Made by a program: the position numbers and the translations under genes. Under the pieces are notes generated by a model. The model ran no database searches and was not told the DNA's origin. It saw nothing but the letters and a program-made list of their open reading frames with translations. A stretch of 64,000 nucleotides of DNA from Actinomycetota bacterium (lineage in GTDB: Bacteria > Actinomycetota > Acidimicrobiia > Acidimicrobiales > MedAcidi-G1): contig JACNKQ010000031.1 in NCBI GenBank assembly GCA_014381945.1, positions 1 to 64,000 on the forward strand, in the 5' to 3' direction. How positions within the stretch are numbered: position 1 is the first letter of the stretch; every line of letters begins with the position of its first letter. Below, one piece after another: positions 8,542 to 60,486 of this stretch.

Positions 8542-8844
8542 ATGCAGACTTCCCGAACCGCCGCCACTTCGTTGTTTCCGCCCACCGGTCGAGCCGGTTG
8601 CAACGACGCGGCGCTGCCGTGGGTGGACCGGAGTGCATGTCGGGGCCTCGACGCCACGATCTTCTACCCGGACCCCGACGACGAGGTGGGTACGGAGCGG
8701 GCACTGGCCGTGTGCGGAGGCTGTGACGTGCAGGAGCACTGTCTCGAACACGCTCTCTCCCTGCGGGAGCACACCGGCATCTGGGGTGGTGCAACCGAGC
8801 GTGATCGTCGACGCATCCTGCGTCGTCGCCGCCGTTCGGCCTGA
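8542..8844 (+). CDS. WhiB-family iron-sulfur transcriptional regulator
   Basis: 100 residues with the four invariant cysteines of the family: Cys33 in ACRGLD, Cys58 and Cys61 in VCGGC, and Cys67 in EHCLEHAL. They bind a redox-sensitive [4Fe-4S] cluster. GIWGG, the turn preceding the basic tail, and the final ERDRRRILRRRRR DNA-binding tail are also present. WhiB proteins partner with the primary sigma factor and control division, redox and stress responses in Actinobacteria, to which they are restricted. The ATG at 8542 is chosen over the long upstream frame, which overlaps rnpB and non-coding sequence. The paralogue (WhiB1, 2, 3 and so on) cannot be assigned by eye. Confidence 0.93.
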   Translation: MQTSRTAATSLFPPTGRAGCNDAALPWVDRSACRGLDATIFYPDPDDEVGTERALAVCGGCDVQEHCLEHALSLREHTGIWGGATERDRRRILRRRRRSA

Positions 8845-8856
8845 GGGTCCATCCAG

Positions 8857-9885
8857 ATGGGACTCCAGGGTCTCGGCGGGTGGCCGGGGCTGCTGAACCG
8901 GCTGTGCGCCGGCGAGGACCTCGGGAGCGACGAAGCCGAAGCGGTCCTCAGCGAGGTCCTCTCCGGTGGCGCCGAGCCCGTCCAGATAGCCGCATTCCTG
9001 GTGGCTCTGAAGGTCAAGGGCGAGACCACTGAGGAGACGGTCGGCCTCGTCCGGGCGATGCTGGCGGCCGCCGAACCCCTGGACCTGCCGGAAGACACGA
9101 TCGACATCGTCGGTACCGGGGGCTCGCCCCGCAGGCGTGAGAAGGCCCTCAACGTCTCGACCATGGCATGTTTCGTGGCTGCCGGAGCGGGTGCCACGGT
9201 GTGCAAGCACGGCAACAGACGGGCCTCGTCGACCTCCGGTGCCTTCGACCTGCTCGACCAGTTGGGGCTCGACATCGACGTCGCTCCCGAGAAGGTGGCG
9301 GAGCAGGTGGCCCTGCACAACCTTGGGTTCGCCTTCGCCCGGACCTTCCACCCGGCCATGCGCTTCGCCGGTCCGGTCCGGGCCGGAATCGGAATCCCCA
9401 CCGTCTTCAACGTGCTGGGGCCCCTCTCGCCTCCAGGTGGCGTGCGGCGCCAGCTCGTCGGATGTGCCGAGCACTCGCTCGGCAACCGCATGATCGAGGT
9501 CTTCCGGGCCACCGGCTCGGTGCACACGTGGGTGGTCACCGGACACGACAACCTCGACGAGATCGCAGTTACAGGTCCGACGAGGGTCCTCGAGCTCCGC
9601 GACGGTGAGATCGGCGAGTTCGAACTCGACCCCTCGGCACACGGGATCACCATCGTTGAACCCGACGACCTGCCCGGAGGCGACCCGGCTGAAAATGCTG
9701 CGATCGCCACCGCATTGTTCGCCGGGGAGGAGCGGGGCCCCGCCCGGGACATCGTCGTGCTGAACGCCGCCGCCGCCCTTGTGGTGGCGGGCGTGGCCGA
9801 CAACCTCGACGCCGGCATCGAGGCCGCAACGGCTTCGATAGACGGCGGTTCGGCTGCGGCTGTTTTGGAGGCACTGCGCGCCTGA
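8857..9885 (+). CDS. trpD: anthranilate phosphoribosyltransferase
   Basis: 342 residues of the nucleoside phosphorylase/TrpD fold. TrpD transfers phosphoribose from PRPP to anthranilate in tryptophan synthesis. Recognisable blocks are DIVGTGGSP with LNVSTMACFV, KHGNRRASSTSG, FHPAMRFAGPVRAGIG and FNVLGPLSPPGG, and the metal-binding Asp-Glu in GHDNLDEIA. The PRPP loop is odd: the usual GTGGD reads GTGGS and is followed by an Arg-rich insertion (SPRRREKALN). Otherwise length and motif order are normal. It starts 12 bases after whiB and is convergent with the nuclease gene, the same pairing as mycobacterial Rv2192c/Rv2191. A TrpD2-type paralogue with another substrate cannot be excluded. Confidence 0.87.
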   Translation: MGLQGLGGWPGLLNRLCAGEDLGSDEAEAVLSEVLSGGAEPVQIAAFLVALKVKGETTEETVGLVRAMLAAAEPLDLPEDTIDIVGTGGSPRRREKALNVSTMACFVAAGAGATVCKHGNRRASSTSGAFDLLDQLGLDIDVAPEKVAEQVALHNLGFAFARTFHPAMRFAGPVRAGIGIPTVFNVLGPLSPPGGVRRQLVGCAEHSLGNRMIEVFRATGSVHTWVVTGHDNLDEIAVTGPTRVLELRDGEIGEFELDPSAHGITIVEPDDLPGGDPAENAAIATALFAGEERGPARDIVVLNAAAALVVAGVADNLDAGIEAATASIDGGSAAAVLEALRA

Positions 9886-9912: not shown

Positions 9913-11616
9913 TCACGTGGCGGGTGATCGGGGCGCAAACCGGGGAATGGGCCGGAGGGGTTCCGCCAGTGGACCTTCGACGTGGAGCGGCTCGAGGCGG
10001 TGGGCCTCCCGCTCGAACCAGGTTGCCACGCAGTTCAGCTCATCGGCCTCGTCCCGGGTGACGGGCCCCACCGGTGGCGCAACTTCGTCGAAGGTGGGCT
10101 CGTCGACTGGATCCGGTTCTCCGTCGCTCCAGGTCCGGTGCAACCTTCCGTTGATGACCTCGGCAATTCCGTGTCCGACTATCCGGACCCGGACCCGGCC
10201 GGCGTTCCGGAGGATGTCGATGCGGCGCTGGCGTAGGAGGGTGCTAGCCAGTGCCTCGGCGCCATTGCGGGCGTCGGCAGCCTCCTCGAAGCGCTCAGCG
10301 GCCGCCAACCCCTGCATCCGTTCCGCGAGGGGTCGGAGCAGCAGTTGGGGCTCGCCGGTGAGGCCCCGGTATGCGAGGTCCGCGATGTCGGCATAGTCCG
10401 ACTCGTCGATCGATCCGGAGCAGGGGCATGCGGCTGCCCCCAACTGGGCCGCCGTGCAGGGCGAGGTGCTGGATGAGGTGCTGCGATCCCTGGGGACACG
10501 CCCCGTGCAGCGCCGCAGCGGGACGACCGAGTGGATCGCCCCGATCACCTGCCGGGCGAACGAGGTGGATCGGACGGGACCTATGTAGAGGGCGCCGTCG
10601 TCCCTGACCACGCGTGCCACTGCCAGTCGGGGGAAGGCCTCCCCGAGCGTGAGCTTGAGGTAGACGTAGCGTCCGCTGCCGGTCCCCTGGCGGTTGTAGC
10701 GGGGCTGGTGCCGGTGGATGAGCCGGATCTCGATGACCGCAGCCTCGAGCGGGCTCGAGCACACCTGGTGGTCGATGCGTTGGGTCTCGCGTAGAAGGCG
10801 CTGGACCTTGCGGCGTCCGTCGGTCGAGAAGTAGCTGCGGACACGGGACCGCAGGTTGGTGGCCTTGCCGACATAGAGGACGTCGCCACGACGGTCGCGG
10901 AAGATGTAGACGCCCGGCAGGCGGGGGAGGGTCTCGGTGAGGGGCAGCTTTCCGGCTTCGGCATGGCCCGCCATGGTCGGCAGGACCAGGAGGTCGTCGA
11001 GGCCGGTGACCCCGAGCGTCGCCGCCCGCTCGATCAGGAGGTGCAGCAGTTCGCCGGTGGCGAGGGCGTCATCGAGGGCACGGTGGTTGGGGGAGTGGTC
11101 GAGGCGCAGGTGCCTGGCGAGGGTGCCGAGCTTGCAGTCGGGGACCTGGTCGCGCACGAGGCGGCGTGCCAGTGCACACGTGTCGACGGATCTGTTGGTG
11201 AGGGGCGGCCGGTCGGCCCGCTCGAGCGCAGCCCGCAGGAAGGAGAGGTCGAAGCGGACGTTGTGGCCGACGATGACCGAATCGCCGACGAACTCGAGGA
11301 GGGTGGGCAACACGGCGTCGATCAGGGGAGCGTCGTGCACCATCGCCTCGGTGATTCCGGTCAGCACCGTGATGCGGGGTGGGATGCCGCAGCCCGGATC
11401 GACCAGCGTCTGGAAGGTGCCGAGACAGGCCCCTCCCCGGAGCTTGACGGCGCCGATCTCGGTGATTGCACACGTGGCCGGGGAGGTGCCGGTGGTTTCG
11501 AGGTCGATTACGCAGAAGGTGACGTCGGAAAGCGGCGTTCCGAGGTCGTCGAGGGAGCGCTGGAGGGGCGGGGCACGGGTGGTTTCGCGGGTGGTTTTGC
11601 GGGCGGAAACAGGCAT
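9913..11616 (-). CDS. DEDDh 3'-5' exonuclease fused to UvrC-like GIY-YIG endonuclease domain
   Basis: 567 residues. An N-terminal DnaQ/epsilon-type exonuclease (about 20-190) has VIDLETTGTSP, HNVRFDLSF and HRALDDALATG, the Asp-Glu-Asp-His-Asp metal ligands. A GIY-YIG nuclease follows from about residue 210: LPGVYIFRDRRGDVLYVGKA, then LRSRVRSYF. The remainder resembles the N-terminal half of UvrC and the Cho endonuclease. The same fusion is known in mycobacteria (Rv2191). It probably processes damaged DNA, cutting near a lesion and trimming. The ATG at 11616 is chosen because the upstream frame start (TTG 11652) is itself the -35 hexamer of a promoter carrying a LexA-type box, so the protein is probably SOS induced. 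Confidence 0.88.
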   Translation of the reverse strand: MPVSARKTTRETTRAPPLQRSLDDLGTPLSDVTFCVIDLETTGTSPATCAITEIGAVKLRGGACLGTFQTLVDPGCGIPPRITVLTGITEAMVHDAPLIDAVLPTLLEFVGDSVIVGHNVRFDLSFLRAALERADRPPLTNRSVDTCALARRLVRDQVPDCKLGTLARHLRLDHSPNHRALDDALATGELLHLLIERAATLGVTGLDDLLVLPTMAGHAEAGKLPLTETLPRLPGVYIFRDRRGDVLYVGKATNLRSRVRSYFSTDGRRKVQRLLRETQRIDHQVCSSPLEAAVIEIRLIHRHQPRYNRQGTGSGRYVYLKLTLGEAFPRLAVARVVRDDGALYIGPVRSTSFARQVIGAIHSVVPLRRCTGRVPRDRSTSSSTSPCTAAQLGAAACPCSGSIDESDYADIADLAYRGLTGEPQLLLRPLAERMQGLAAAERFEEAADARNGAEALASTLLRQRRIDILRNAGRVRVRIVGHGIAEVINGRLHRTWSDGEPDPVDEPTFDEVAPPVGPVTRDEADELNCVATWFEREAHRLEPLHVEGPLAEPLRPIPRFAPRSPAT

Positions 11617-11623
11617 CCCTACC

Positions 11624-11652
11624 AGTAAATCGAACATGTGTTCGTCTGTCAA
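11624..11652 (-). promoter_or_regulatory. SOS-type promoter: TTGACA, 17 bp, TTTACT with an embedded LexA box
   Basis: Minus-strand -35 TTGACA (11652-11647) and -10 TTTACT (11629-11624) with a 17-bp spacer. The spacer is filled by CGAACATGTGTTCG (11631-11644 on the plus strand), a match to the Gram-positive/actinobacterial LexA box CGAAC-N4-GTTCG. The -10 ends 7 bases before the ATG at 11616, so the message is probably leaderless. Confidence 0.85.
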
Positions 11653-11699: not shown

Positions 11700-11921
11700 A
11701 TGGAAAATCCACGAATACCTGAACCATTCCCCCAGACCATGGTGATCGACTGCGCCACCTGCAGTGAGCAGCACACCGCCACCTGCGACGACTGCGTCGT
11801 GACCTTCCTGCTGGGTCGTCGGCCGGGCGAGGCCGTCGTGATCGACCTGGCGGAACACCGCAGCCTCCGCATCCTCGCCGACGCCGGTCTGGCGCCGCCG
11901 TTGCGGCACAGCGCCGACTGA
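11700..11921 (+). CDS. small Cys-rich conserved protein, function unknown
   Basis: 73 residues. Two cysteine pairs, CATC and CDDC, flank SEQHTAT near the N-terminus and could bind a metal; the rest is a short alpha/beta segment, VVTFLLGRRPGEAVVIDLAEHR. No catalytic motif is seen. The ATG at 11700 follows a GATAAT hexamer by 6 bases, consistent with a leaderless start; the open frame begins 15 codons earlier without support. It is divergent from the SOS-controlled nuclease, with about 80 bases between the two starts, and could share regulation from that intergenic space. Confidence 0.65.
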   Translation: MENPRIPEPFPQTMVIDCATCSEQHTATCDDCVVTFLLGRRPGEAVVIDLAEHRSLRILADAGLAPPLRHSAD

Positions 11922-59755: not shown

Positions 59756-60486
59756 CGGACTATGCGCTGGAAGGAGCGGTTGATGCTGGTGCGCTGGAAT
59801 CCGAGCGCCTCGTAGAGACGGTTGGCATGCCGGTTGTCGGATTCGACGTAGAGCATCGAGTTGCGCAGTCCCTGTCCGCTGAGCCATGCCAGGCCGTCCA
59901 GGACCAACTCCCGACCGAGCCCGCGCCCGTGGAAGTCGGGGTCCACGGCAATGGCGTAGATCTCTCCGATCGGAGGCTGCTCGTCGGCGTGCACCTTTGT
60001 CCAGCAGAAGCCGGCGAGGCGGCCCTCGATCTCGAGCAGGCGGAAGCCGTCGGGGTCGAACCATGGTTCGGCACACTTCCCGGCGAACTCAGCGGGGGTG
60101 AGGTCGCCCTGTTCCGGGTGCCAGTCGAATGCCCGGTTGTTGACCTCGAGGAAGGCGTCTTCGTCGGCGGTGGTGAAGGCGCGCGTGGCGAGGTCGGTGT
60201 CCGGGGCCGGCAGCGGGCGCTCGAGCCGCCACAGGTCCCGGTAGTGGATGAACCCGGCTGCAATCGGTACCCGGTCGCTGGTGGGCGTGGCATTTTCGAT
60301 CCAGAACTCCAGACGGCCTCCCTCGTCGAGCATTACTGCCTGCGTGGCGGCCTCGAGCAGGCGCTGCCGTCGGACGTCGTCGTCTCCCTCCACCCGGAGT
60401 TCGACCAGCCAACCGTTGCGGGCGGTGGTGAGTACGACGGTGTCGGTGCCGTCGGATACCTCGAGACGCTCGGATTCGGTTGCCAT
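59752..60486 (-). CDS. GNAT acetyltransferase, probable mycothiol synthase (MshD-like)
   Basis: 244 residues with tandem GNAT-type halves. The C-terminal half holds the clearer acetyl-CoA motif: IYAIAVDPDFHGRGLGRELV, then MLYVESDNRHANRLYEALGF. The pattern (weak N-terminal half, strong C-terminal half, ending SDNRHANRLYEALGF plus a basic tail) is that of MshD, which acetylates desacetylmycothiol to give mycothiol, the actinobacterial low-molecular-weight thiol. It is about 50 residues shorter than the mycobacterial enzyme. ATG 60486 is chosen because TAGCCT lies 8 bases upstream on the minus strand. Alternatives are general N-acetyltransferases. Confidence 0.72.
   Translation of the reverse strand: MATESERLEVSDGTDTVVLTTARNGWLVELRVEGDDDVRRQRLLEAATQAVMLDEGGRLEFWIENATPTSDRVPIAAGFIHYRDLWRLERPLPAPDTDLATRAFTTADEDAFLEVNNRAFDWHPEQGDLTPAEFAGKCAEPWFDPDGFRLLEIEGRLAGFCWTKVHADEQPPIGEIYAIAVDPDFHGRGLGRELVLDGLAWLSGQGLRNSMLYVESDNRHANRLYEALGFQRTSINRSFQRIVR

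Follow-up and report, generated by a model that had tools for sequence, protein, structure and literature searches.

A LexA-type SOS box in the promoter of a DnaQ-UvrC fusion nuclease gene in Acidimicrobiia and other Actinomycetota

The nuclease gene and its promoter

The stretch analysed here (the window) comprises 64,000 nucleotides (nt) of contig JACNKQ010000031.1 from an acidimicrobial member of the Actinomycetota (assembly GCA_014381945.1). On its minus strand lies a gene for a fusion of a DEDDh exonuclease with the N-terminal half of UvrC, and the promoter of this gene contains a perfect LexA-type palindrome. The features of the locus are as follows.

9913-11616, minus strand: DEDDh exonuclease/GIY-YIG (UvrC N-half) fusion gene, 567 amino acids, start ATG 11616 (NF005907, Pfam, TIGR00194)
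11617-11623, minus strand: the 7 nt GGTAGGG between -10 element and ATG; box-to-start distance 14 nt
11624-11629, minus strand: -10 element TTTACT, with a spacing of 17 nt to the -35 element; a weak match, its positional equivalent kept in relatives
11631-11644, no strand assigned: LexA-type SOS box CGAACATGTGTTCG (minus strand CGAACACATGTTCG); exact half-sites, one of six refined matches in the genome, kept in relatives
11647-11652, minus strand: -35 element TTGACA, by direct reading; cTTGAC right before the box is kept in genus and family

Read along the minus strand, TTGACA (11652-11647) is followed by the 17-nt spacer GACGAACACATGTTCGA, TTTACT (11629-11624), GGTAGGG and the ATG (11616-11614), with CGAACACATGTTCG occupying the centre of the spacer; on the plus strand, positions 11614-11652 read CAT CCCTACC AGTAAA T CGAACATGTGTTCG TC TGTCAA. 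A preliminary description of this DNA had placed a LexA-type box within the 17-bp spacer between TTGACA and TTTACT and the -10 element seven bases from the ATG at 11616, and direct reading bears out both placements to the base; the box thus overlaps the promoter. With 7 nt between the -10 element and the ATG, the transcript would have no leader or almost none; this proposed start fits the conserved short spacing between box and start codon described below. The same description warned that a TTG within the -35 element is otherwise taken as the start codon. This TTG (11652) is indeed in frame with ATG 11616 and the open frame runs upstream through the box, so that a mechanical open reading frame caller puts the start there.

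Conservation of the box in relatives

Loci of relatives were collected from GTDB contigs and from genomes sampled at each rank from genus to phylum, with extra upstream regions added, and boxes were counted rank by rank in the 300 bp upstream of the nuclease gene. In this sample, which is uneven and made up of relatives that are not independent, an exact box was present at 6/6 same-genus, 3/4 same-family, 17/25 same-order, 18/20 same-class and 29/74 same-phylum loci, and an exact or one-mismatch box at 6/6, 3/4, 20/25 and 20/20 loci of the first four ranks. When the 168 non-identical upstream regions were pooled, 92 had an exact match to the box and 31 a match with one mismatch, against 0 and 3 for the reversed pattern; upstream regions simulated with a first-order Markov model held 0.0006 exact and 0.023 one-mismatch boxes per region. 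The loci with a box come from almost all of the sampled Acidimicrobiia and from several further groups of the Actinomycetota, and the operator is conserved in orthologues with families f68, f72 and f75 as exceptions. The preliminary description had named relatives with the gene and without the box as one finding that would refute it. The outcome is in its favour: within Acidimicrobiia the box is near-universal, and elsewhere in the phylum it is common. One set of candidates was rejected: the one-mismatch matches at L163-L184 (family f56; including L173 and L183) lie in conserved coding sequence of a form of the protein with a longer N-terminus and were scored as having no box.

In a tree of the exonuclease part, which was quickly built and has many weak forks, a large clade of 95 rows carries the box almost throughout, takes in nearly every row that has one, and includes the class together with several other families of the phylum. 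Families f68, f72 and f75 fall inside this clade without a box, and f82 lies outside it with one. The fewest box changes that this tree requires is nine, with gain and loss not distinguishable from it. In f82, L187 and L190 have the box before the start and a longer N-terminus, for which either an independent gain or an early origin is possible. Three contigs titled Bifidobacterium breve (L043, L068 and L069, all metagenome-assembled genomes) carry Acidimicrobiia-like copies of the nuclease, and their titles look wrong. One further copy, at L086, has a single in-frame TAA.

Two divergent genes share the intergenic region that contains the box, which could be a real box that serves the gene on the other side, instead of or besides the nuclease gene. 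That neighbour (11700-11921, plus strand) encodes a 73-amino-acid protein with a CxxC...CDDC pattern and is followed by queG; searches of the protein against Pfam and NCBIfam gave no match. Homologues of the small protein were matched in 40 collected loci, box-less ones included, and queG in 32. The position of the box nevertheless points to the nuclease gene: it lies in the nuclease promoter, and among the 77 relatives with a box-to-start distance of 5-20 nt the distance is 13-17 nt in 58. The box also stays in loci where the small gene and queG were not found adjacent (for example L117-L133), and the small gene also stands opposite box-less nuclease genes of f68 and f72 (L134, L157-L159 and L161). 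We therefore consider control of the divergent gene unlikely, and assign the box to the nuclease gene.

LexA boxes across the genome

A genome-wide scan for CGAAC-N4-GTTCG, which the preliminary description had proposed, returned 18 exact sites in the 2.49-Mb genome compared with 1 for a reversed-pattern control. Six of them precede lexA (two sites), recA, imuA', dnaE2 and the nuclease gene, and in all six CGAAC is followed by a purine and GTTCG preceded by a pyrimidine; the corresponding refined motif, CGAAC-R-N2-Y-GTTCG, is found at 6 sites compared with 1 in the control. The refinement was drawn from those same six sites, and their perfect separation is therefore partly by construction, but neither the enrichment of the unrefined motif nor the identities of the genes is a product of it. 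Family models confirmed the identities, with LexA (TIGR00498, 221.7 bits), RecA (TIGR02012, 563.4 bits) and ImuA' (NF058630) all above their cut-offs; the error-prone polymerase DnaE2 scores 531.8 bits against a cut-off of 939 (NF004225) because only the first half of the polymerase, from a contig-truncated sequence, was scored. We accordingly count five promoters in the recognisable LexA regulon of this genome: those of lexA, recA, imuA', dnaE2 and the nuclease gene.

The remaining twelve exact boxes were rejected as regulon members since none has the purine/pyrimidine centre; nine of the twelve are located within coding-like frames, and the other three (L001, L013 and L015) are in open frames or at their edges. 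Two exact sites fall in the window, at 11631 and 60057, and the second (60057-60070) sits in a coding-like frame, lacks the purine/pyrimidine centre and is probably no operator. The two exact boxes of the lexA promoter are 30 bp apart and share about 90 bp of sequence with two degenerate ones, GGAACGCCTGTTCG and GGAACATGTGTGCG (L002 1440-1545). In one genome of the same class (G042) the refined box matches 38 times, compared with 4-13 in most others, and the LexA regulon there may be much larger.

Recognition of a motif alone does not identify the protein that binds it, and another palindrome-binding regulator, such as a phage-type or XRE-family repressor, could in principle occupy the site. 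We regard this as very unlikely: CGAACACATGTTCG fits the motif common to the lexA, recA, imuA' and dnaE2 promoters of the same genome, before which alone the refined motif otherwise occurs, which is the signature of LexA. The motif also agrees with that of an actinobacterial LexA determined by chromatin immunoprecipitation sequencing (ChIP-seq) in S. venezuelae, tCGAAC-N4-GNNCGa, which has the same half-site and whose regulon likewise includes lexA and dnaE2 (PMC9380542). Least credible is a chance palindrome or a run of codons translated from TTG 11652: the open frame does continue upstream through the box, but such an origin is refuted by the conservation of the DNA at a fixed promoter position, by the rarity of exact boxes in the simulated regions, and by box-to-start distances that represent all three reading frames, so that what is conserved is not a coding sequence.

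The nuclease protein

The preliminary description had read the gene as a fusion of an epsilon-type DEDDh exonuclease with a UvrC/Cho-like GIY-YIG endonuclease, and the domain and family matches agree with that reading. The protein scores 554.9 bits with NF005907 (DEDD exonuclease domain-containing protein), above the curated cut-off of 454, and Pfam places an RNase_T/DEDDh domain at residues 36-190 (110 bits) and a GIY-YIG domain at residues 235-308, beyond which UvrC-like sequence continues to roughly residue 465. The match to the UvrC model TIGR00194 is confined to model positions 6-230 of 574, outside which lie the RNase H-like 5'-incision half and the HhH domain; the protein is thus not a full-length UvrC. 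A complete UvrC is encoded elsewhere in the genome (G000:C51:5288-7048), and no box was found in the retrieved region around its gene, where the best match had two mismatches.

In 62 aligned sequences, drawn from Chloroflexia and several groups of Actinomycetota, the DEDDh Exo I-III residues D38, E40, D123, H178 and D183 are invariant, as are the GIY-YIG residues G235, Y237, Y248, G250, R258, E296 and N308. At the site of the UvrC cysteine motif, conservation is at least 97% for C370, C387 and C399 and 80% for C397, and in the UVR-like helices E444, A446 and R450 are invariant. The first part is thus predicted to be a DEDDh 3'-5' exonuclease of the DnaQ family with its active-site residues complete, and the second a UvrC/Cho-type GIY-YIG nuclease in which the GVY/YVG core and the catalytic Arg, Glu and Asn are all present. 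An AlphaFold model (mean predicted local distance difference test score 90.1, predicted template modelling score 0.83) shows an N-terminal exonuclease fold whose best structural matches are the DnaQ, DinG and PolC exonucleases; UvrC GIY-YIG structures were matched by sequence.

A probable damage-inducible repair nuclease

Several observations count against the box acting as an SOS operator of the nuclease gene. TTTACT is a weak -10 element, with 4/6 consensus positions and no A at position 2, which is why the gene shows no promoter in a strict sigma-70 scan. In addition, families f68, f72 and f75 have the nuclease gene without the box, which is also missing in single members of f1, f3, f7, f52 and f54; since some relatives bearing the gene have no box, SOS control is not obligatory for it. 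On the other side, many relatives have TAnnnT at the -10 position. Taking the genomic evidence together, we think it highly likely that the box is a functional LexA operator on an SOS-released promoter and that the gene encodes a Cho-like repair nuclease with its own exonuclease. Given the perfect box in the promoter and the same box kept across much of the Actinomycetota, the nuclease is very probably made mainly upon DNA damage, in support of the damage-inducible repair nuclease that the preliminary description thought plausible.

In the mechanism that we propose, LexA would bind CGAACACATGTTCG between the -35 and -10 elements and block RNA polymerase, until DNA damage triggers RecA-driven self-cleavage of LexA, which would free the promoter and allow a leaderless or near-leaderless nuclease mRNA to be made. 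The UvrC-type GIY-YIG domain, probably recruited by UvrB, would nick the damaged strand 3' of the lesion. Lacking the RNase H-like half of UvrC, the protein cannot make the 5' incision; the DEDDh domain could instead chew 3'-to-5' from the nick and so replace this second incision. A further reading, which we consider less likely than not, is that the LexA box came to stand before the DnaQ-UvrC fusion early in Actinomycetota and disappeared from some of the lineages retaining the gene (f68, f72 and f75), the enzyme providing a one-nick excision route (3' incision by GIY-YIG, then 3'-5' chewing) apart from uninduced UvrABC repair.

Relation to known systems

In E. coli, cho is under LexA control. 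The SOS-inducible Cho resembles the nuclease described here, for which LexA-type control is proposed, in being a GIY-YIG nuclease of the UvrC type that lacks the 5'-incision half and is second to a full UvrC. Cho makes the 3' incision only (PMC518961). Unlike Cho, the present nuclease carries a fused DEDDh exonuclease ahead of the GIY-YIG domain and a UVR-like helical region behind it, and the two differ in phylum and in LexA motif.

The architecture is identical to that of the PRK07883/NF005907 DnaQ-UvrC fusions of the Rv2191 type, Rv2191 being the fusion of M. tuberculosis. The fusion was noted in M. tuberculosis and in the Betaproteobacteria Ralstonia and Chromobacterium in 2004, and coordinated action of the endonuclease and exonuclease has been proposed earlier (PMC518961 and its reference 20). 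What distinguishes the members described here from the Rv2191-type family is the LexA box in their promoters; the open papers on Rv2191 covered by the search do not describe LexA control of it. For Bacteroidetes, LexA-type control was inferred in 2021 for a GIY-YIG exonuclease with homology to the proofreading subunit of DNA polymerase III (PMC8565304), which resembles our nuclease in combining a proofreading-like exonuclease with a GIY-YIG domain and in its inferred LexA-type motifs. The main text on the S. venezuelae LexA regulon names no GIY-YIG, UvrC or exonuclease gene (PMC9380542), and in the open literature that we searched, most subscription papers lying outside the search, we found no report of a GIY-YIG protein under LexA or SOS control in Actinobacteria or Acidimicrobiia.

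What is new, judged from these genomes, is that the fusion appears to belong to the conserved core of SOS genes in Acidimicrobiia and in related Actinomycetota, a phylum-wide pattern that is unreported. As the only repair nuclease among the five recognisable LexA promoters, this poorly studied fusion would be central to the damage response of Acidimicrobiia. The proposed mechanism offers a concrete function for the Rv2191-type family, whose control would differ between lineages of the Actinomycetota.

Neighbouring genes

On the other side of the nuclease gene, two genes are convergent with it.

8599-8844, plus strand: WhiB-family regulator (Pfam PF02467), 12 bp upstream of the next gene
8857-9885, plus strand: TrpD-like anthranilate phosphoribosyltransferase gene
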